Assembly (NCBI GenBank): GCA_021846145.1
Contig: JAJZCJ010000112.1
Location: 1 to 9,815, forward strand
Source: Bacillota bacterium
GTDB taxonomy: Bacteria; Bacillota; Bacilli; Alicyclobacillales; SLC66
Length of the DNA: 9,815 nucleotides
Direction: 5' to 3'
Shown here: one piece after another, positions 1 to 9,439 of the stretch
Layout: each line of letters begins with the position of its first letter
Position numbering within the stretch: the first letter of the stretch is position 1
Program-made: the position numbers and the translations under genes
The notes under the pieces: generated by a model
What the model was told of the DNA's origin: nothing
Databases searched by the model: none
What the model saw: only the letters and a program-made list of their open reading frames with translations

Positions 1-446
1 TGGAATTCTTCACAAATCGCAAAGACGAGTTCCGCACCAAATCGTAATAGTCGATCTTTATGAGTAATAACAAGTCGTTCGATGTCATTTCGCATGATGC
101 GTTGTAAAAGTGTTTTCAAACCTTTTTTTTGATAATTAAGCCCTGATCCCAAATCGCGAATCACTTCATGTGTCCATCCATTTTTCGTACAAAACTCTGA
201 TAACAAAACCGCCTGCCTTTCCAAGTCTGCTTTTTGATCATGGCTGGAAACCCGTGCATAGGCGATGGTCACACGATCTGTTTTTGGCATCGGGTGCATC
301 GCCATTTGTGTTAATTCTTCGGAATGATACCGGCGATGACCGCCAGGTGTTCGTTCTGGTTTGATGCGCCCTTCTTCTTCCCAACGGCGCATCGTGCTTT
401 TTGATACTCCTAATAACTTCGCGGCTTCTTCTAAACTTAATAACAT
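1..446 (-). CDS. tnpA: IS607-family transposase TnpA (serine recombinase), 3' end outside window
   Basis: This is the N-terminal 148 residues of a small serine recombinase, cut by the left edge of the window. Residues 1-45 form a MerR-like helix-turn-helix with the typical opening LSLEEAAKLLGVS, then RRWEEEGRI and TPGGHRRY, which binds element ends. The resolvase-type catalytic domain follows: YARVSSHDQK at 63-72 carries the nucleophilic serine (S67), followed by DLERQ, a GSGLNY segment near 100-105 and KDRLLRFG at 130-137. This order of HTH before catalytic domain is diagnostic of IS607 TnpA. Family members are about 200 residues long, so roughly a quarter is missing. An accessory tnpB normally follows and would lie beyond position 1. 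The ATG at 446 fits the family N-terminus; no good Shine-Dalgarno site is visible, and a TATGAT-like -10 lies just upstream. IS607 elements lack terminal inverted repeats, so the element end, somewhere in 447-600, cannot be fixed by eye. Confidence 0.92.
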   Translation of the reverse strand, partial: MLLSLEEAAKLLGVSKSTMRRWEEEGRIKPERTPGGHRRYHSEELTQMAMHPMPKTDRVTIAYARVSSHDQKADLERQAVLLSEFCTKNGWTHEVIRDLGSGLNYQKKGLKTLLQRIMRNDIERLVITHKDRLLRFGAELVFAICEEF

Positions 447-1833: not shown

Positions 1834-2850
1834 CTACGTTCGCACCTTAGCTTCACTACTAGTCATAAATTGATACCATCGTTGCCGAAACCTCACTTGC
1901 GCCCCATCCGCAGGAACATGAGCCTCCATTCTCAATGCTTCTGGGATGGGACGGGGATGTTGGCTTTCCACTACTTTACGATCTTCCTCAAGAATTTTCA
2001 GACTATAATAAGAAAAAAACTTATTTATCAGTGGCACACTACGCAAGAATGTCCTTCCTGCATAACCAAAAATCATCGTCTCTGTGGCGCTGATCGGAGT
2101 GAAAGTCACATAGTTAATAAAACTTCGCTCACTTCTTACTGAAGGCCTTAACATCCATTGCTGAGGAAACCAATATTCCAACATCCCTCCACCGTTTTGG
2201 ATTGATATTTGATTATGATCAGACACCGCAAAGTGCAGCGCAGGAATTTCTGCATCCACCCGCCTACCAATCGTGTTTTTATGCACAAATGGTAAATGCG
2301 CCACATCCAGCACACTTTCCACCACTCGTGTCAAATGTGCCTTCCACATTGTCTCATAAGGAGAGAGAGAATAGTTATTATCCAACAACTCAGTAAACAC
2401 CTTAAGTTCTTCAGGATGAGCGATACTTGCATCTTGAGGATATACCCAAATCAAGCCTGCCTTTTCTTGAACAGGATATGCCTTAATATGAGCAAAATCA
2501 GGAATCGGCCGATCTGGATGTGCAGGGATTTTCACACACTTACCATCCCCATTAAATTCCCATCCGTGATAGGCACAGTGTAGCGCACCATTCTGACAGT
2601 GAACTAACGATAAATCAGCGCCCCGATGCGCACAATACGCTTCTAGACAATGCACGCCTCCTTGCTCATCTCGATAGAACACTAAATCTCTGCCAACCAC
2701 CGTATGCTTGATTGGTATCTTCGTTAACTTCCTAGCCCACATGACCGCATACCATGTAAGCGGAAATACTTGATCATCACTTGTCTTGGTAATAATGCGT
2801 GGGTCTGAATCGACCACTGCGTCTTTTGCTTGATTACGTACAACTTCCAT
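1834..2850 (-). CDS. Rieske [2Fe-2S] oxygenase, ring-hydroxylating / PAO-VanA-like alpha subunit
   Basis: This is a 338-residue non-heme iron oxygenase. Residues about 30-140 are the Rieske domain: C73-x-H75 and C92-x2-H95, sixteen residues apart, bind the [2Fe-2S] cluster. The catalytic domain follows, with DVAHLPFVH giving D182, H185 and H190; H185, H190 and probably D290 (in EEDRKVVESQ) would hold the mononuclear iron. These enzymes take electrons from a reductase and use O2 for mono- or dioxygenation or O-demethylation. The LPFVH and EDRxVVESQ pattern resembles the pheophorbide a oxygenase/vanillate demethylase side of the superfamily; the substrate is unknown. No transmembrane anchor is evident. 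No reductase or ferredoxin gene is in the window. The ATG follows a GGGGGA Shine-Dalgarno site and lies 16 nt after the stop of the upstream cobalamin-dependent regulator, so the two are probably co-transcribed. Confidence 0.9.
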   Translation of the reverse strand: MEVVRNQAKDAVVDSDPRIITKTSDDQVFPLTWYAVMWARKLTKIPIKHTVVGRDLVFYRDEQGGVHCLEAYCAHRGADLSLVHCQNGALHCAYHGWEFNGDGKCVKIPAHPDRPIPDFAHIKAYPVQEKAGLIWVYPQDASIAHPEELKVFTELLDNNYSLSPYETMWKAHLTRVVESVLDVAHLPFVHKNTIGRRVDAEIPALHFAVSDHNQISIQNGGGMLEYWFPQQWMLRPSVRSERSFINYVTFTPISATETMIFGYAGRTFLRSVPLINKFFSYYSLKILEEDRKVVESQHPRPIPEALRMEAHVPADGAQVRFRQRWYQFMTSSEAKVRT

Positions 2851-2866
2851 ACGTCATCCCCCATTC

Positions 2867-3817
2867 TCAATGTTTCATTGACTCAATTTTCTGAAATAAC
2901 AATCCAATACTATCGACGAAATGAAGACATCTCTTTGCACGCGTTGATAAGCTCACTTTGGCTGCGGCTCCTCCAATATAAAACTGAATATTTGGATACA
3001 GTGAAGCCAATTGATCAATCTCATCGAGCGCGAATGGATTGTTTTCCAGAGGTAGCATGGTGGTCAACGACAATAAAACCACCTTTGGTTGTAATTGGAT
3101 TACCGCATCAGCAAGCGCACGAGGAGCGGGACTAGCCCCTAGGAAGACCGTTTTATACCCTTTAATAGCCGCCTCAAGAAGTGCAAGATGAAGCATCACC
3201 TCATGACGCTCGCCAGGAACGCAAGTAGCTAATAATAGTGGTGCGTCGAACGGTACAGATAACGATGAGTATGCTTGGATCAAAAAATCTTGTACGGCTA
3301 CGCTGGCAATGTGCTCTTGGTATTCATGCCACACACCAGATTCCCAGCGTTTGCCAATTTCAAACAGAAAAGGAACCAACAAATTTCCAGACAGATACTT
3401 TAGTCCATTCTGTGAATAGATTGTTTGAAGAAGATCATGGATGTCACGACCTGCTCCTTGCTCACCTAAAGCAAACAGCTGTTCCAAATAAAGCGTTGCC
3501 TCGGTCTGCTTGATCGCATACGGGGAGACGTTTTCCTGCAAACTGAGTGTAGTTTGATCTGTAAACACCACATCAGAATCTAACGGCTGCTGTTTGACCC
3601 AGAGTACGGCTTTTCGAATCGAATAACCTTCTTCAGTCAATTTTTGCAGTTGTCTTAAGCGCATGACATCACTCTTGCTATATACCCGATATCTATTCTC
3701 AAGACGTCGAGGCTCAACGGCGTGATAACGCTCTTCCCATTTGCGAATTAATTGTGTACTTAACCCTGTTAGCTGAGCCACCTGTCGAATACTATACCAA
3801 TCCTTAGAGTCCACCAC
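2867..3817 (-). CDS. MerR-family regulator with cobalamin-binding domain (CarH/LitR-like light sensor)
   Basis: This is a 316-residue regulator. Residues 5-75 form a MerR winged helix (SIRQVAQLTGLS, then IRKWEERY and RLENRYRVYS). Residues about 105-185 match the helical bundle that caps cobalamin, including W158-x9-E168-H169, the hallmark of AdoCbl photoreceptors of the CarA/CarH type. Residues 192-310 are a Rossmann-like B12-binding domain with GERHEVM, where H205 is the expected lower axial ligand; the glycine of the usual ExHxxG motif is replaced by M208. In CarH the residue after the tryptophan is a histidine that ligates cobalt after illumination; here it is E159. In characterised relatives the dark AdoCbl form is a DNA-bound tetramer and light releases it. 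The start is GTG, within a run of GGGT repeats that may also serve as ribosome binding site; an in-frame TAG at 3827-3829 blocks extension. It heads an operon with the Rieske gene and is divergent from the EAL gene. Confidence 0.88.
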   Translation of the reverse strand: MVDSKDWYSIRQVAQLTGLSTQLIRKWEERYHAVEPRRLENRYRVYSKSDVMRLRQLQKLTEEGYSIRKAVLWVKQQPLDSDVVFTDQTTLSLQENVSPYAIKQTEATLYLEQLFALGEQGAGRDIHDLLQTIYSQNGLKYLSGNLLVPFLFEIGKRWESGVWHEYQEHIASVAVQDFLIQAYSSLSVPFDAPLLLATCVPGERHEVMLHLALLEAAIKGYKTVFLGASPAPRALADAVIQLQPKVVLLSLTTMLPLENNPFALDEIDQLASLYPNIQFYIGGAAAKVSLSTRAKRCLHFVDSIGLLFQKIESMKH

Positions 3818-3861: not shown

Positions 3862-3890
3862 ATACTACCCCCAACAATGTACAATTTCAA
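3862..3890 (-). promoter_or_regulatory. Putative sigma-A promoter of the CarH-like/Rieske operon
   Basis: On the minus strand TTGAAA (3890-3885) and TAGTAT (3867-3862) are separated by 17 nt, giving 5/6 and 4/6 matches to the sigma-A consensus. Initiation would fall near 3855, about 40 nt before the GTG start. A TGTACA site (3878-3883) lies in the spacer next to the -35, where a bound repressor would block polymerase; this suggests autoregulation. Confidence 0.5.
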
Positions 3891-3935
3891 CTATTTGTAT
3901 AAAGTTTTGTATAATTTTTTACTATACGCTTTACA
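3878..3935. promoter_or_regulatory. Cluster of TnTACA-like half-sites, candidate CarH-type operators
   Basis: Elements matching TnTACA or its complement TGTAnA are TGTACA at 3878-3883 (fits both ways), TGTATA at 3896-3901, TGTATA at 3908-3913 and TTTACA at 3930-3935. A further TATACA lies at 3828-3833, close to the regulator start. The two TGTATA copies are tandem, 12 bp apart, inside the longer shared string TTTGTATAA. From memory, Thermus CarH binds 11-bp direct repeats with a TnTACA core, so this is a plausible binding region. The sites flank the -35 elements of both divergent promoters. Binding is inferred; the background is AT-rich, so single sites could occur by chance. Confidence 0.5.
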
Positions 3936-3940
3936 AACAT

Positions 3941-3969
3941 TTGACAATTATCGCGGTGGAAAATAAAAT
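3941..3969 (+). promoter_or_regulatory. Sigma-A promoter of the EAL gene
   Basis: A consensus TTGACA at 3941-3946 is followed after exactly 17 nt by TAAAAT at 3964-3969. Initiation would be near 3976, leaving a leader of about 22 nt that holds the GAGAGGAG ribosome binding site. This argues for translation starting at 3998 and not at the in-frame TTG at 3941, which lies within the -35. A TTTACA half-site ends 5 nt before the -35. Confidence 0.68.
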
Positions 3970-3997: not shown

Positions 3998-5062
3998 ATG
4001 TCTGCTAACCCTCACTACCATAAGGATCAACGTGGAATAATTGTACAATTTGACAACGAGGAATCAGTTCATCAGGCGGTGCCACTACAAATGTACCTCT
4101 CTAACAATGCACGCATGACGAGTGAAGTGTTGAACGTTTGGTTTACGGAACTCACATTATACGAGCTAGTTCCCTATTGGAAAGAGCATTTCCAAGTCGA
4201 TCAATGGCAGTTTTATGTTGCAGATTATTTGTCTGCAACGCAGTGGCAAATCATCAACGCAATGACATGGACCCAACTATTAGAAATCAGACCGAAATTT
4301 TGGATCGACGACATCATTAGAGCGAAGCGGATTCGCATGATGTATCAACCTATTGTGGAATGGAAACAAAAATCCCTCCATCTTCTTGGTCACGAAATGT
4401 TGGCACGAGGTTATGTAAATAGTGAACAAATCATCCCGCCTGAGCAACTGTTTGAAGCTGCAAAAGACAATGGTAGGCTTTATCAACTTGATCGACTTTG
4501 CCGAATGGAAGCATTACGCGCTGGACATTTGTGTCCTGACGACTCGAAAATTTTCATTAATTTTGTTCCCTCGTCCATCTATTCACCAAAACGCTGTTTG
4601 CAATCGACTTTTTCAGAAGCAAAACTCCTAAATTTAGATCCCGCACGAATTGTATTCGAAGTGATTGAGACCGAACAGATTGACGATCTCCCGCAAATGC
4701 TTACCATTCTTGACCATTATCATGAACAAGGCTATTCATATGCGCTAGACGATGTAGGGAAGGGGATGAATACCATCAAAAGATTACATCAACTGCAGCC
4801 AGACATTGTGAAACTGGACCGCCACTATGTAACGCACATCGATAACTATCCAATAAAGCAGGAGAGTGCCAAGAGAATTGCCGAAGCGGCTGGTCAAATT
4901 GGTGCAACTTGTATTGCTGAGGGAGTGGAAAGAATGGAAGAAGCTCAATATTTACTGGAAGTTGGTTATCATATACAGCAGGGGTACCTCTATGGAAGAC
5001 CAGCATTTTCTCCGCTCACAGCAGAACAACTAACTCATCCATCGCAGTCAAAACAACTCTAA
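3998..5062 (+). CDS. EAL-domain protein, predicted c-di-GMP phosphodiesterase
   Basis: This is a 354-residue cytoplasmic protein. Residues about 108-340 form an EAL domain, which hydrolyses c-di-GMP to linear pGpG. The signature reads E133-M-L-A-R instead of EAL-x-R, but the other catalytic or metal-binding residues appear intact: N188 (FINFVPSS), E221 and E224 (FEVIE), D251-D252 (LDDVGKG), K272 (IVKLDR), E308 (IAEGVE) and Q328 (QQGYLYGRP). Activity is therefore plausible. Residues 1-105 are not recognised; the tryptophan- and tyrosine-rich stretch at 48-101 may be a small sensory or partner domain. The ATG follows GAGAGGAGT with 7 nt spacing. The gene diverges from the CarH-like regulator and probably shares its operator region. 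Its last 15 nt overlap the end of the convergent phosphatase gene. It could counter the GGDEF protein encoded opposite. Confidence 0.87.
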   Translation: MSANPHYHKDQRGIIVQFDNEESVHQAVPLQMYLSNNARMTSEVLNVWFTELTLYELVPYWKEHFQVDQWQFYVADYLSATQWQIINAMTWTQLLEIRPKFWIDDIIRAKRIRMMYQPIVEWKQKSLHLLGHEMLARGYVNSEQIIPPEQLFEAAKDNGRLYQLDRLCRMEALRAGHLCPDDSKIFINFVPSSIYSPKRCLQSTFSEAKLLNLDPARIVFEVIETEQIDDLPQMLTILDHYHEQGYSYALDDVGKGMNTIKRLHQLQPDIVKLDRHYVTHIDNYPIKQESAKRIAEAAGQIGATCIAEGVERMEEAQYLLEVGYHIQQGYLYGRPAFSPLTAEQLTHPSQSKQL

Positions 5063-6109
5063 TGTCATCAAGGTAATATCATCTTGCACTAAATATTGAG
5101 AAAGAAATTTTTCAAAGTCGTCATGCATGGAGGCTATTTGAATTGGAAATTCCCGAATGGACGGAACAAGTAGATCATATAGTCCATCTGTCATCAAATA
5201 CAATGTATCGCCAGGTTTCACAAGGATTATATGTTCCTGAAAATCGGATGAATTTGATATCCCAAGGTATGTGCTCTCCACCTGAATCTTATGAAGTTGC
5301 TCTCCATCATGATGAAAAAAAGTATGTATTCCCGCTGACACATAACGAAATTTCATCGTATCAAAATCCAAAACAAAACACAGTGCAGCGGCAAATGTTT
5401 CATTTGCCAAATAAAAATTGGCAGATTGATTAAGGCGATTCATTGCTTCCCCAAGCGTAGGTGCCTGTTGAATTGTCTCTCTTATCAATACCCGCATCGC
5501 TCCAACTTGCATCGCGGCAGACACACCATGTCCCATGACATCAGCTACATATCCAAAAAGCACCCTATCCTGAAGCCAAAAATAATCATAAAGATCTCCC
5601 GTCACAGAGTATAGCCCTTTATGCACAGTGCGAATCCGTACCCTATCACTTTGGTATAATGGATCAGGAGCAAGTGATTTCTGCAATTTTCCTGCCACCT
5701 GGATGTCTAACAACATATCTTTTTCTGTAGTGATCTCCTGAAACACAGTAAAGTAATACCGATTGCCTCCTGGCATTTCGATGGGATATATCTCAAGCCA
5801 CTCGCGGTACAAGGAGCCATCTTGACGCCGATTCCAGATTTCACCTGACCAATGACCTGTTAAAATTAATGATTTCCAAAACGACTCATAAAAATCAACA
5901 CCTTGCACGCCTGATTTCAGGATTCTAGTAGAATGACCTACTGCAACTTCCCGTTCATAGCCTGTCACTCTGGTAAATGCACGGTTAACCCAAAGAATGA
6001 TCCCTTCCGCATTCGCGATCACCATTGGATCGTGTGCATAATCTAAGTATGTCCAATACCACTCACTAGAAGCCGAACGCAAATAATTACTAATGCTTAT
6101 GCACCTCAC
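5048..6109 (-). CDS. PAS domain-PP2C (SpoIIE/RsbU-type) serine phosphatase
   Basis: This 353-residue protein joins a sensor to a phosphatase. Residues 17-130 are a PAS/PAC domain (VNRAFTRVTGY at 41-51, then YYFTVFQEITTEK). Residues 127-148 look like the short helical linker common before RsbU-type catalytic domains. Residues 150-353 form the PP2C domain with its metal-binding aspartates: D172 and D175 in GDLYDYF, D190 in ADVMGHG, D308 in TDGLYD and D343-D344 in QDDITLM. Such phosphatases dephosphorylate a serine on a STAS anti-anti-sigma protein, and a STAS gene lies immediately upstream, making it the likely substrate. The PAS ligand is unknown. The start is GTG (6109-6107), preceded by only a weak GGA; in-frame extension is blocked by TAA at 6127-6125. 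The gap from the STAS stop is 18 nt. The 3' end overlaps the EAL gene tail-to-tail by 15 nt. Confidence 0.88.
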   Translation of the reverse strand: MRCISISNYLRSASSEWYWTYLDYAHDPMVIANAEGIILWVNRAFTRVTGYEREVAVGHSTRILKSGVQGVDFYESFWKSLILTGHWSGEIWNRRQDGSLYREWLEIYPIEMPGGNRYYFTVFQEITTEKDMLLDIQVAGKLQKSLAPDPLYQSDRVRIRTVHKGLYSVTGDLYDYFWLQDRVLFGYVADVMGHGVSAAMQVGAMRVLIRETIQQAPTLGEAMNRLNQSANFYLANETFAAALCFVLDFDTMKFRYVSAGIHTFFHHDGEQLHKIQVESTYLGISNSSDFQEHIILVKPGDTLYLMTDGLYDLLVPSIREFPIQIASMHDDFEKFLSQYLVQDDITLMTLELF

Positions 6110-6127
6110 AAAAAAACAAATCCATTA

Positions 6128-6439
6128 TTAATCATTTTGAATATCAAATACTTTATCTAAACGCGTCAATGTAAATAATTCCTTAACACTCCCTCGTAAT
6201 CCTGTCAATGTCATATGTCCACCACGCTCCATTAAGCGCTTATGAATGCCAATGAGTACACCAAGCCCCGCACTATCAATGAAATCTAAACGTGACATGT
6301 TCACATCGACACTGTGTGTTCCCTTTTCCACTAATTGAAGCAACCTCTCTCTGAGCATTGCCGCATCAGGAACGTACATTTGTCCATCCAACTTCACAAG
6401 GATACGATCTCCATGATTTTCAATTTCTACAGGCATCAT
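6128..6439 (-). CDS. STAS-domain anti-sigma factor antagonist (RsbV/SpoIIAA-like)
   Basis: This is a single STAS domain of 103 residues, the normal size for RsbV/SpoIIAA. The core DFIDSAGLGVLIG at 52-64 contains the phosphorylatable serine S56. In partner switching, the unphosphorylated form binds an anti-sigma kinase and frees its sigma factor; the kinase inactivates it by phosphorylating this serine, and a PP2C phosphatase reverses that. The next gene encodes such a phosphatase. No RsbW-like kinase or sigma factor gene is in the window. The start at 6439 is preferred over an in-frame ATG at 6556 because GGGAG (6450-6446) is 6 nt upstream and the protein then begins at the domain edge (MMPVEIENHG). 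The longer version would add 39 residues and read across repeats and a possible promoter. The gene ends in tandem TAA TAA, in the same frame as the following phosphatase gene. Confidence 0.88.
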   Translation of the reverse strand: MMPVEIENHGDRILVKLDGQMYVPDAAMLRERLLQLVEKGTHSVDVNMSRLDFIDSAGLGVLIGIHKRLMERGGHMTLTGLRGSVKELFTLTRLDKVFDIQND

Positions 6440-6476
6440 TGATAACTCCCATTCATCCAAAATAACTTCACAAATA

Positions 6477-6540
6477 ATAGTTAGGCTATAGTTAACCTTA
6501 TTCTTAAAGACATTGTCAATGCAACGTAAATTATTGTCAA
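6477..6540 (-). repeat. Paired direct repeats and possible promoter before the STAS gene
   Basis: On the minus strand TTGACAAT occurs at 6540-6533 and again at 6519-6512, exactly 21 bp apart. TAACTAT occurs at 6494-6488 and 6483-6477, 11 bp apart. The first TTGACA followed after 17 nt by GACAAT (6517-6512) could be a sigma-A promoter, giving the STAS and phosphatase genes their own start inside the cluster. The helical-phase spacing of both pairs suggests binding sites, but no regulator is identified. Confidence 0.4.
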
Positions 6541-6571
6541 GAGTGATACTGACCATTTTGGCTATTTGTAG

Positions 6572-7861
6572 TTACAAAATCCACTCCTCTTGATCAGGTT
6601 GGTAGACCACATGATTCCCCCCCATTTTTTTGCCGTGGTATAATCTTTGATCCGCAAGGCGATATGCCTCTTGGTAAGTGGATGCTTCCCGTGGTATTTC
6701 AACAATGCCAGCCGTAACACCCAGACTGTATGTACGCAACGGACTTTTTGCAAGCATATTTCTCATTTGCCATACCCATCGTCCACTCCACTTCGTGTTT
6801 TGCAACACCAGGACAAATTCATCGCCGCCCAGTCTCGCTACCCAGTCTCCTTTGCGCAATGCTTTGCTAATGTAAAGAGCGATCGACTGTAGTGCATCAT
6901 CCCCCATTTGATGACCTTGCGTATCATTCAATAACTTAAAGTGATCCAAATCAAAAAGCACAAACACAGCAGGCTTGTTACTTTGATCAAGAAAATAATT
7001 TTCCATATGAGTTTCGAGCGCTCTGCGATTCCAAATGCCCGTCAACGAATCATAATCCAATTGATCGCGAAGTTTCTTGCGTTGATTAATGAGTTGAATG
7101 GCCATCCGGTAATAATCAAGCAAAAAACGCATTAAGTTCTGATCTTCTAATCCAGCATCCTGAATTAAATACACTACCTCACCACTATTGCGTTCTAACG
7201 AAAGATTATAGCGAAGCAGTTGAAAAGTCTGATGCTCATATTCTATATATAATGGCAAACCATGCTTTTGCTGATGGATGTAATAATCCTGTGCATCCTT
7301 TTGAATCATATTCATGTAAAATGCTGATATAGTGATGCGCCCAAAGCACTCAGAATGCGTAATTTCCCCGTCCACAAAAAGGAAATAACAGCCACCAATT
7401 AAGTTCATCAATTGTATAAATAAATCACGAAACTGTAGCCATAATTCAGCAGGGTTTTCGAGAAATAAGAGCACATCAGATAACCGAAAGAGCCACTGCA
7501 TGATATTATTATCATTACGTAAATGTTCAATTTCTTGGTTAAAATCCAATGGAATAACGATGGATAAGATGCCTTGAAAAACCACACGATCGTCATAAAC
7601 AGGGAAAGCAATGACCGTATAAGGAAATCCTAGCAATTCCGTCTGTACTTCTTGTATTGTCCAACGCCTTTGCTGCCAAGTTTGAGCGGTTACCGACCCG
7701 ACCATGATGGGATCAATGATAGACATACCAATCTGAAATGTGAAAGGTAACCGAGCAGAATCACGATAAAAAGTAATAACACCTTCTGCATTGACGAAGG
7801 TGATCGCTGAATCACTCGGCAAAATTTGCGCGGCTTGGTGTAACAGATGATCTATTTCCAC
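6572..7861 (-). CDS. GGDEF-domain protein, predicted diguanylate cyclase
   Basis: This protein has 429 residues from the preferred start. Residues about 265-425 are a GGDEF domain, which makes c-di-GMP from two GTP. DYDSLTGIWNRRAL opens the domain, FDLDHFK carries the metal-binding aspartate near 304, and RLGGDEFV at 343-350 holds the active site. RKGD at 336-339 stands five residues before GGDEF, so the RxxD inhibitory site for product feedback is present. Residues 1-250 form an unassigned sensory region; the stretch near 40-110 (PFTFQIG, then IAFPVYDD and FQGILSIVIPLD) looks GAF- or PAS-like. No transmembrane helix is convincing. GTG at 7861 is chosen because GGGAG (7875-7871) is 9 nt upstream; an in-frame ATG at 7903 has no ribosome binding site and nearly coincides with the likely transcription start. 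It lies 132 nt before the STAS gene on the same strand. Confidence 0.86.
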   Translation of the reverse strand: MEIDHLLHQAAQILPSDSAITFVNAEGVITFYRDSARLPFTFQIGMSIIDPIMVGSVTAQTWQQRRWTIQEVQTELLGFPYTVIAFPVYDDRVVFQGILSIVIPLDFNQEIEHLRNDNNIMQWLFRLSDVLLFLENPAELWLQFRDLFIQLMNLIGGCYFLFVDGEITHSECFGRITISAFYMNMIQKDAQDYYIHQQKHGLPLYIEYEHQTFQLLRYNLSLERNSGEVVYLIQDAGLEDQNLMRFLLDYYRMAIQLINQRKKLRDQLDYDSLTGIWNRRALETHMENYFLDQSNKPAVFVLFDLDHFKLLNDTQGHQMGDDALQSIALYISKALRKGDWVARLGGDEFVLVLQNTKWSGRWVWQMRNMLAKSPLRTYSLGVTAGIVEIPREASTYQEAYRLADQRLYHGKKMGGNHVVYQPDQEEWIL

Positions 7862-7908
7862 ATGACACCGCTCCCTTTCGCATGCCGAAAATAAGTCTAC
7901 CATTAGAT

Positions 7909-8004: not shown

Positions 8005-9141
8005 ATGCGAAACATAAATTATCATGAACGACCGATTCTTGCATTTTGGGAAACTACGCGTGCTTGCCTATTAAGTTGTGCACATTGCCGGGCAGAAGCA
8101 ATGGCTGAACCACTCCCAGGTGAACTATCTAACGAAGAAGGAAAGCAATTTATCCGATCGTTACTTGAATTTGGCAAACCATATCCCGTCTTAATTCTCA
8201 CAGGTGGCGATGTGCTAATGAGAAACGACGCGATGGAACTCGTCGACTATGCAAAAAGTCTCGAAATACCCGTCGCGATGTCTCCGAGCGTAACACCTAA
8301 TTTAACGATAGAAAGAATGCAACAAATGAAGGCGCTCGGCATTAGAATGGTGTCCATCAGTTTAGACGGCGCAGTAGCTGCCACGCACGAAACGATCCGC
8401 GGAATACCTGGACACTTTGAACAAACACTGCAGGCACTACGACAACTAGTCGAACTTGGCTTTCATGTACAAGTGAACACGGCAGTCATGCGCGATAACG
8501 CAAAAGAACTCGCTGCGATTGCTGAAATTTTAAAAACAATAGGCGTTGAGACATGGGAAGTATTTTTTCTTGTACACGTGGGACGCGGACAAAACAGTCA
8601 TGAGCTAAGCCCCGCCGAATGTGAAGACGTAGTACATTTTTTATATGACGCGTCTGCCTATGACCTTGTCGTTCGCACAGTGGAAGGTCCATTTTTCAGG
8701 CGGATTATCAAATGGCGTGAACGCGACGAACTGAATACCCAAGTGAATCCAGAGCAAGTGGCCTCCCATTACCAGCTTGGTGGCCTTTACAGAGAATTGG
8801 CAACTGATTTGGTTCACCGACTTGGTGACGCAACCGCCGCTCCCAAAGCACAAACTAGTCAGACCAGAGATGGCAAAGGGATCGTGTTTGTCTCCTACGA
8901 CGGAACAGTCTATCCTGCTGGCTTTCTGCCACTTCCACTAGGAAACATTCGCGATCAAAATATCGCAACCATTTACCGTTCACAACCGGTGCTTCAGCAA
9001 ATTCGCAACGCGGAATTTACAGGGCGCTGCGGAGTATGTGATTACAAGGACCTTTGTGGCGGTTCAAGGGCACGCGCCTTTGCCCATAGTGGTGATCCAC
9101 TTGCAGAAGATCCAGCTTGCGCGTATGTTCCATTAGCATGA
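8005..9141 (+). CDS. Radical SAM/SPASM-domain protein (NirJ/AhbD-like, resembles TIGR04053)
   Basis: This is a 378-residue radical SAM enzyme. C21-x3-C25-x2-C28 binds the SAM-cleaving [4Fe-4S] cluster, and ILTGGDV at 64-70 is the GGE-like SAM-binding motif. Residues 110-200 continue the partial barrel. The C-terminal SPASM-type segment has C342, C345, C351 and C372 (GRCGVCDYKDLCGG), enough for one auxiliary cluster. At the VYPAGFLPLPLGN position, where many SPASM enzymes have a further cysteine, there is A305. The opening ERPILAFWETTRACLLSCAHCRAEA-type sequence resembles heme-pathway enzymes NirJ/AhbD and the TIGR04053 family, whose substrate I do not know. The start is well supported: GAGG (7994-7997) 7 nt before the ATG. 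It diverges from the GGDEF gene. No peptide substrate gene is evident beside it, and a separate promoter follows for the next gene. Confidence 0.85.
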   Translation: MRNINYHERPILAFWETTRACLLSCAHCRAEAMAEPLPGELSNEEGKQFIRSLLEFGKPYPVLILTGGDVLMRNDAMELVDYAKSLEIPVAMSPSVTPNLTIERMQQMKALGIRMVSISLDGAVAATHETIRGIPGHFEQTLQALRQLVELGFHVQVNTAVMRDNAKELAAIAEILKTIGVETWEVFFLVHVGRGQNSHELSPAECEDVVHFLYDASAYDLVVRTVEGPFFRRIIKWRERDELNTQVNPEQVASHYQLGGLYRELATDLVHRLGDATAAPKAQTSQTRDGKGIVFVSYDGTVYPAGFLPLPLGNIRDQNIATIYRSQPVLQQIRNAEFTGRCGVCDYKDLCGGSRARAFAHSGDPLAEDPACAYVPLA

Positions 9142-9180: not shown

Positions 9181-9201
9181 TGAATTGCATTTCCCATAAA
9201 T

Positions 9202-9331
9202 GCGCTGAATTCTTTGAAGAAAAGAAGCGGGGGACCCGAGTTTTGTGGGGTGAATCCAATCGTCCGACCTAAAGGGAGCGATTGGTAGGGTGAACTTTCC
9301 ACCCGAATCCGACAGCTAACTTCGTAAGCGT
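9202..9331 (+). promoter_or_regulatory. c-di-AMP riboswitch (ydaO-yuaA class)
   Basis: The segment carries the conserved blocks of the ydaO-yuaA aptamer in order: GCGCTGAAT near 9202, GCGGGGGACCCGA at 9227-9239, GGGGTGAATCC at 9245-9255, AAGGGAG near 9273, CCCGAATCCGACAGCTAAC at 9302-9320 and TTCGTAAGCGTT at 9321-9332. GCGCT (9202-9206) can pair with AGCGT (9327-9331) to close P1, giving a length of 130 nt, normal for the class. These RNAs bind cyclic di-AMP, and most characterised ones lower expression when it is abundant; targets are often cell-wall, potassium or osmolyte genes. Together with the promoter and platform it fills the 305-nt gap between the flanking genes. The downstream target here is a KamA-family radical SAM gene. 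Confidence 0.92.
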
Positions 9332-9439
9332 TGAAAGTAGGGGAATATTTTAATTGATGCAGGCATAAATTGGATATGCTTGTTTTCACCTCTACACGCA
9401 TGATTAGCCCCGTTTCCTTCTTCCTACTTTTGAAGGGGG
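9331..9439 (+). promoter_or_regulatory. Riboswitch expression platform with possible Shine-Dalgarno control
   Basis: No intrinsic terminator with a proper U-run is visible. Instead, 9331-9343, directly at the 3' edge of the aptamer, can pair with 9421-9433 over 13 positions counting G-U pairs; the core AAAGTAGG/CCTACTTT is perfect. An alternative hairpin, CCTTC (9416-9420) with GAAGG (9432-9436), and CCCC (9408-9411) facing the GGGGG of the ribosome site (9435-9439) would hide the Shine-Dalgarno. A weak stem AGGCATA/TATGCTT (9361-9381) followed by GTTTT is also present. Translational switching is my inference. Confidence 0.45.

Follow-up and report, generated by a model that had tools for sequence, protein, structure and literature searches.

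A CarH-like MerR/B12-binding regulator of Bacillota, probably a gene repressor switched off by light

The regulator gene and its surroundings

The window analysed here, a stretch of 9,815 nucleotides from a Bacillota bacterium, carries at 2867..3817 (minus strand) the gene for a CarH-like MerR/B12-binding regulator, an uninterrupted frame of 316 aa with a GTG start. The product is probably a vitamin B12-binding gene repressor that is switched off by light; its fold class, cofactor residues, clade, operator-like repeats and gene order are read from sequence. A Pfam scan returned MerR_1 (8e-15) and MerR (1.3e-9) over their cut-offs, with B12-binding (25.3 bits; cut-off 32.1) and B12-binding_2 (22.8 bits; cut-off 23) both falling below theirs. 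The NCBIfam equivalog model for CarH, NF052513, gave 90.2 bits against a cut-off of 400. The top solved relatives by sequence were Thermus CarH (5c8d, E 3.9e-21) and CtMerR (8jbs, E 1.4e-13). When an AlphaFold2 model (34-row alignment, mean pLDDT 89.7, pTM 0.66) was submitted to Foldseek, the first 12 PDB rows were Thermus CarH chains, followed by CtMerR. A long helix in this model, residues 123-159, ends at W158-E159, and the next helix starts from 165. Pfam placed no photocobilin-type globin biliverdin domain in the protein, which ends with its B12 domain.

Sixteen bases past the regulator stop codon lies a Rieske/VanA_C oxygenase gene (1834..2850, minus strand), probably on the same transcript, whose product is akin to SxtDIOX, SxtT, dicamba demethylase and other Rieske oxygenases; none of the NCBIfam models scored over cut-off for it. 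A gene for an EAL-domain, c-di-GMP phosphodiesterase-like protein diverges from the regulator (3998..5062, plus strand), and the ATG at 3998 is its likelier start, since the listed ORF start, TTG at 3941, sits inside a predicted promoter. Among the ten window proteins scanned there were no photolyase, folE or carotenoid genes and no B12 synthesis or uptake families, and no cobalamin riboswitch was found in the window at the Rfam gathering threshold. A folE remnant in the window was considered and rejected, as tblastn gave three matches with E values of 1.5 or worse, none of them between the regulator and Rieske genes.

Elsewhere in the window, an IS607-family transposase (3-446, minus strand; 168 bits, cut-off 110) is cut by the window edge, and its MerR-type HTH is a weak match to the CarH model. 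PAS-SpoIIE, STAS and GGDEF genes (5048-7903, minus strand) are syntenic with two related loci, L002 and L003, in which an OmpR-type response regulator gene, absent from the window, lies between STAS and GGDEF. A TIGR04053 radical SAM/SPASM protein (8005-9141, plus strand; 499 bits) is 88% identical in both of these loci. A c-di-AMP (ydaO) riboswitch (9193-9345, plus strand; 93.2 bits) lies upstream of a KamA-type aminomutase-like frame that runs from ~9444 and is cut by the window end.

Cofactor-pocket residues and clade placement

Residues were compared in an alignment of 293 sequences, all >230 aa, in which sequence groups were set by match rank and the homologues P0001-P0086 partly overlap the Bacillota loci. 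An earlier, sequence-only reading had singled out W158, E159, E168-H169, H205 and M208; all are present, and their equivalences to Thermus CarH are borne out. On the minus strand, W158 (codon 3344..3346) corresponds to W131, which stacks on adenosyl; E159 (3341..3343) to H132, the upper ligand in light-state Thermus CarH; E168-H169 (3311..3316) to E141-H142; H205 (3203..3205) to H177, the lower cobalt ligand; and M208 (3194..3196) to G180. With the Trp, the Glu and the lower His all kept, AdoCbl binding appears likely, as that reading had held.

Measured against CarH/LitR class I, the regulator has the MerR-type DNA-binding domain and Wx9EH (W158, E168, H169), and it departs from the motif D/ExHx2(G/P)x41SxT/Vx22-27GG: E203-x-H205 is followed by M208 in place of G/P and, after x41, by S250-x-T252, with 29 rather than 22-27 residues before G282-G283. 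The His that follows the Trp in many, not all, CarH proteins is E159 here. The light-responsive CBD signature described in available passages of PMC11796333 appears as GKRW (GxxW), EH and GERH (GxxH), and its GxxxP element as GASPA, with the proline one residue early, which is also the case in other printed clade members. Phylogeny was inferred from 100 rows (quick search, midpoint root, no bootstrap, several long branches). The regulator falls in a clade of 60 Bacillota rows (SH-aLRT 99) that is sister to canonical CarH and not inside it; canonical Bacillales CarH-like proteins fall on the Thermus CarH side. Going by the strict form of the published motif, the NCBIfam threshold and the phylogeny, we file the regulator outside canonical CarH, as a member of this sister clade. 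The titles, abstracts and passages searched in the literature outside subscription papers held no account of this clade or of its EAL/folE link, and Bacillus megaterium CarH, a characterised Bacillota protein, was absent among the matches listed. Of 199 genomes sampled from the Peribacillus order, 130 gave a match to canonical CarH-like proteins, of at least two kinds, and in locus L106 a helicase frame resembling recQ (by eye) lies a few genes ahead of the canonical CarH-like gene.

The residue after the Trp (W+1) had been proposed as a special change in this protein, so that light might act without a bis-His photoproduct. Glu occupies W+1 in 63/86 homologues and in 55/80 Bacillota loci, where His is never found (0/80); the Thermaceae-dominated set P0101-P0199 has His in 88/91. 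P0200-P0220 (n=21) has 13 Glu and 7 His, and 14 homologues from other phyla (P0087-P0100) have Ala 5, His 4, Glu 2, Ser 2 and Thr 1, so that Glu leads in the Bacillota sets and in P0200-P0220 but not in P0087-P0100. Outside P0001-P0086 and L002-L081, His leads (100 of 127 sequences), reflecting the predominance of Thermaceae in that set. Canonical Bacillales CarH-like proteins L108-L137 have Glu in 30/30, in a biased sample made up of the 30 nearest to query L102 from the 130/199 genomes with a match. W+1 is Lys in a 90%-identical homologue (P0003), and on the quick tree the site changes 8 times between His and other residues and 21 times between Glu and other residues. E159 is thus a common state of a labile site, and E159 as a conserved functional change is rejected. 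The other half of the proposal, a light response without bis-His, is plausible with CtMerR as precedent; E159 makes a bis-His state through the W+1 residue impossible. H164, offered as an alternative upper ligand, was discarded since the position is not conserved (His in 3/86 homologues and 0/80 loci). M208 is a subclade residue, with Met 11 and Pro 6 among the 17 sequences P0001-P0017.

The upper histidine might instead be H169 (=H142). A homology model puts both H132 and H142 next to the upper face, and H142 was once considered a possible upper ligand (PMC4557120); H169 is retained in the window protein. The Thermus crystal structures, however, use H132, as reported in available passages of PMC10442372, and many clade members have Ser or Ala in place of H169, so we regard a His-ligated light state through H169 as very improbable. 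At the His position of Wx9EH, the 80 loci have Ser in 29, His in 26, Ala in 21 and another residue in 4, and on the quick tree the His is lost once. In 50 of the 80 loci (L002-L081) it is Ser or Ala with the Trp and Glu retained; as His is also missing from W+1 throughout the 80, both upper-face histidines are absent there. This loss, M208, the shifted GxxxP and the NCBIfam score of 90.2 against 400 would also suit a CarA-like protein that binds cobalamin without requiring it and is controlled by a partner protein or is always on. CarA lacks the Trp, according to passages of PMC9304148, whereas the regulator keeps Trp, Glu and His, and the Trp is conserved in 83/86 homologues and 79/80 loci; we consider such a protein improbable here.

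E165 (codon 3323..3325, minus strand), which the sequence-only reading did not remark on, corresponds to V138 of Thermus CarH and is a nearly invariant clade glutamate. The column (W+7) is Glu in 85/86 homologues and 79/80 loci, while 127 other sequences include no Glu there (V 62, T 46, I 15, A 4); the canonical Bacillales proteins L108-L137 (n=30) have T 17, S 12 and I 1. It changes once on the tree, at the branch setting off the 60-row Bacillota clade, and on this alignment E165 is a more distinctive feature than E159. Position 138 of Thermus CarH presumably matches the MetH upper-face cap residue Leu715; the literature searched yielded no mention of a Val138 role or of MetH cap residues. 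E165 could conceivably take over from His132, either as a carboxylate ligand on Co(III) after photolysis or as a base driving adenosyl elimination, a role that we regard as improbable. If true, this would add a third B12 light state to the bis-His and aquo/hydroxo forms, and E165 would be essential to a nested Bacillaceae subclade in which most members have neither upper-face histidine.

Operator-like repeats and genes beside related regulators

A predicted regulator promoter (3862..3890, minus strand; TTGAAA-17-TAGTAT, 9 of 12) came from a scan for 9-of-12 sites that found 7 against 4.9 in shuffles, and TTGAAC and TAGTAT stand at the aligned place in L002 and L003. Directly upstream of its -35 box is a predicted operator of two TATACA repeats 12 bp apart (3896..3913, minus strand); the 20-base pattern around it occurs, with one T/C difference, at the same place in genomes G001 and G002 and in loci L002 and L003. 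The EAL gene has a predicted promoter at 3941..3969 (plus strand; TTGACA-17-TAAAAT, 11 of 12), and its -35 box forms the second repeat of a predicted CarH-type operator, a TnnACA pair 11 bp apart (3930..3946, plus strand); a similar pair is present in L002 and L003. Published CarH operators are described, in passages of PMC9304148 and PMC8156234, as tandem 11-bp TnnACA repeats, often over the -35 box, and the motif and spacing upstream of the clade genes are the same. Class I operators have three or four repeats; in the window the sequence offers one 11-bp and one 12-bp pair.

Of 81 clade genes, counting that of the window, 46 are preceded by a pair at exactly 11 bp; 40 shuffles of the 81 clade upstreams gave a mean of 1.9 and a maximum of 5. 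Control upstreams from the same loci had a pair in 34/582 (odds ratio 21, Fisher 2.7e-27, a p-value that is nominal because the loci are related). By class, control pairs preceded 7/13 EAL, 3/5 folE, 5/17 carotenoid-desaturase-type, 2/12 photolyase and 0/7 carotenoid-synthase-type genes, so the repeats are far from universal at these genes. The strict form TRTACA-N5-TRTACA was found in 14 control upstreams (folE 2, photolyase 2, carotenoid-desaturase-type 5, EAL 1 and 4 from a mixed cluster that includes MCP-type proteins), among which two divergent pairs share one intergenic region each. The sole strict site of each 12.9-kb locus L002 and L003 precedes folE.

A wider regulon was sought in whole genomes and rejected. 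In G001 and G002 the 20-base own-promoter pattern has no exact copy beyond that promoter itself; allowing 2-3 mismatches added three sites in G001 (control 1) and no site in G002 (control 0), while G003 had one (control 0) and G011 none. Strict 11-bp sites numbered 3 in G001 (control 1) and 2 in G002 (control 1), and those away from folE, within a gene in G002 and at a PAS-type frame start (by eye) in G001, are not counted as targets. Another of the three G001 sites (L148, 6374-6390) precedes a frame of 92 codons for a small hydrophobic protein (by eye); it is a candidate target and is likewise not counted.

Genes around the regulators were compared over ~6 kb on each side where available. Gene families are blastp clusters named from Pfam/NCBIfam scans of representatives only, so some members are perhaps misnamed, and the carotenoid-desaturase cluster is broad. 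In 30/81 loci the stretch compared has a photolyase, folE or carotenoid-type gene, and in 19/81 an EAL gene, both as raw counts; by class there were photolyase 13, folE 6, carotenoid desaturase-type 12 and synthase-type 7. W+1 is Glu in 20 of those 30 loci and His in none. Gly at position 208 was found in 11 loci (10 Paenibacillus records and Bacillus sp. FJAT-26390), none with photolyase, folE or carotenoid-type genes. Both L002 and L003 run regulator-folE-Rieske, with the EAL gene diverging; the window has the same arrangement without folE. The regulator-adjacent folE is one of two in G001, G002 and G003, and the sole FAD_binding_7 match in G006 is, by coordinates, the gene adjoining the regulator in L008. 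No match to SQS_PSY (phytoene/squalene synthase) or FAD_binding_7 was found in G001 or in G002 (the latter 1.4 Mb), both genomes of unstated completeness. An ATP:cob(I)alamin adenosyltransferase family is present in 7/7 and the AdoCbl-dependent mutase family PF01642 in 6/7 of the relatives' genomes searched. In Pseudomonas putida, folE and phrB are reported among the light-inducible genes under class II LitR (passages of PMC9758184).

Proposed mechanism and comparison with known systems

The regulator resembles CarH in the features testable here, and we infer light sensing to be the best explanation. We put at about 0.65 the probability that it is a CarH-like, AdoCbl-dependent, light-released repressor of a Bacillota clade sister to canonical CarH; AdoCbl binding, oligomer formation, repression and the light response are themselves inferred. 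In the dark, AdoCbl would be bound base-off via H205 and capped by W158 and E168, giving a DNA-binding oligomer that would occupy direct-repeat operators at the regulator's own promoter, shared with the downstream Rieske gene, and at the EAL promoter. Light would break the Co-C bond, the adenosyl group would leave and the oligomer would dissociate without a bond from the W+1 residue, leaving cobalt with water or hydroxide, or possibly with H169 or a carboxylate; regulator, Rieske oxygenase and EAL protein would then be made.

Several findings count against a light-released repressor: the ten window proteins scanned include none for photolyase, folE or carotenoid functions, the own-promoter repeats are 12 bp apart, GxxxP is shifted, G001 and G002 gave no phytoene/squalene synthase or FAD_binding_7 match, and Thermus H132A is reported to stay mostly tetrameric in light. 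The regulator could instead report B12 status, sensing AdoCbl availability, or oxygen or redox state through cobalamin, and not light as such. The nearest genomes, without those two matches and with the mutase family (6/7), would fit this, as would the use of O2 by Rieske oxygenases and the reported need of Thermus CarH for O2 to reach its final light state (passages of PMC10442372). However, AdoCbl is photolabile, the window has neither a cobalamin riboswitch at the Rfam threshold nor a B12 synthesis or uptake family among its ten scanned proteins, and photolyase, folE or carotenoid-type genes lie next to many relatives, some of them carrying the same repeats. These neighbours and operators in relatives favour light over AdoCbl or oxygen sensing, which we consider unlikely.

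A light-released repressor of this kind predicts that c-di-GMP, pterin and oxygenase genes of Bacillota are controlled by light in a manner dependent on B12. The comparisons suggest that the position of the upper His in Thermus CarH is labile, His being one of its variants. The clade forms a natural series, with Glu, Lys, Ser and others at W+1, His, Ser or Ala in EH and a near-fixed Glu at W+7, and comparing its proteins makes the driver of CarH disassembly without bis-His directly testable.

Thermus thermophilus CarH/LitR (5c8d, 5c8e, 5c8f), the best structural match, shares with the regulator the MerR domain, four-helix bundle and Rossmann B12 domain, Wx9EH and the lower His, and TnnACA direct-repeat operators are predicted for the regulator too. 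At ~30% identity, the regulator differs in H132 to Glu, V138 to Glu, G180 to Met, the shifted GxxxP and its 12-bp own-promoter repeats, and it adjoins EAL and Rieske genes instead of carotenoid genes. Thermus H132A is reported to give a hydroxo species and to be mostly tetrameric in light, although an earlier report saw disassembly (passages of PMC10442372). Canonical Bacillales CarH-like proteins (L102, L108-L142) have the same domains as the regulator, and W+1 is Glu in 4/5 of L138-L142; unlike the regulator, L108-L137 have Thr, Ser or Ile at W+7, with a WERRY recognition helix in those 30. Pseudomonas class II LitR proteins (PplR, PmlR) have phrB and folE among their light-induced genes, according to passages of PMC9758184; they are thought not to bind B12, and PmlR2 responds to a LOV protein.

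CtMerR of Chloracidobacterium thermophilum (8jbs, 8jbt) is likewise a MerR/B12 protein without His132 or the ExHxxG glycine; it differs in having Arg instead of Glu at W+1 and Ile instead of Glu at W+7, and belongs to a different phylum. Passages of PMC11796333 describe SEC-MALS and native MS in which light turns its AdoCbl tetramer into a monomer, the light form containing hydroxocobalamin; an anaerobic light crystal was not monomerised and had water/hydroxide on cobalt and a reoriented glutamate. With this precedent, a light response without bis-His is not new. The same source reports light responses with other W+1 residues, namely Arg in CtMerR, Gln in SasPcob and Tyr in AbDPcob, and such non-His precedents lend plausibility to what the sequence-only reading had proposed. 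The photocobilins SasPcob and AbDPcob respond to light with water/hydroxide on cobalt instead of bis-His, and differ from the regulator in having a biliverdin-binding globin-type domain and no MerR domain; passages of PMC10979010 report the water/hydroxide ligation for SasPcob and tie light to c-di-GMP synthesis through AbDPcob.
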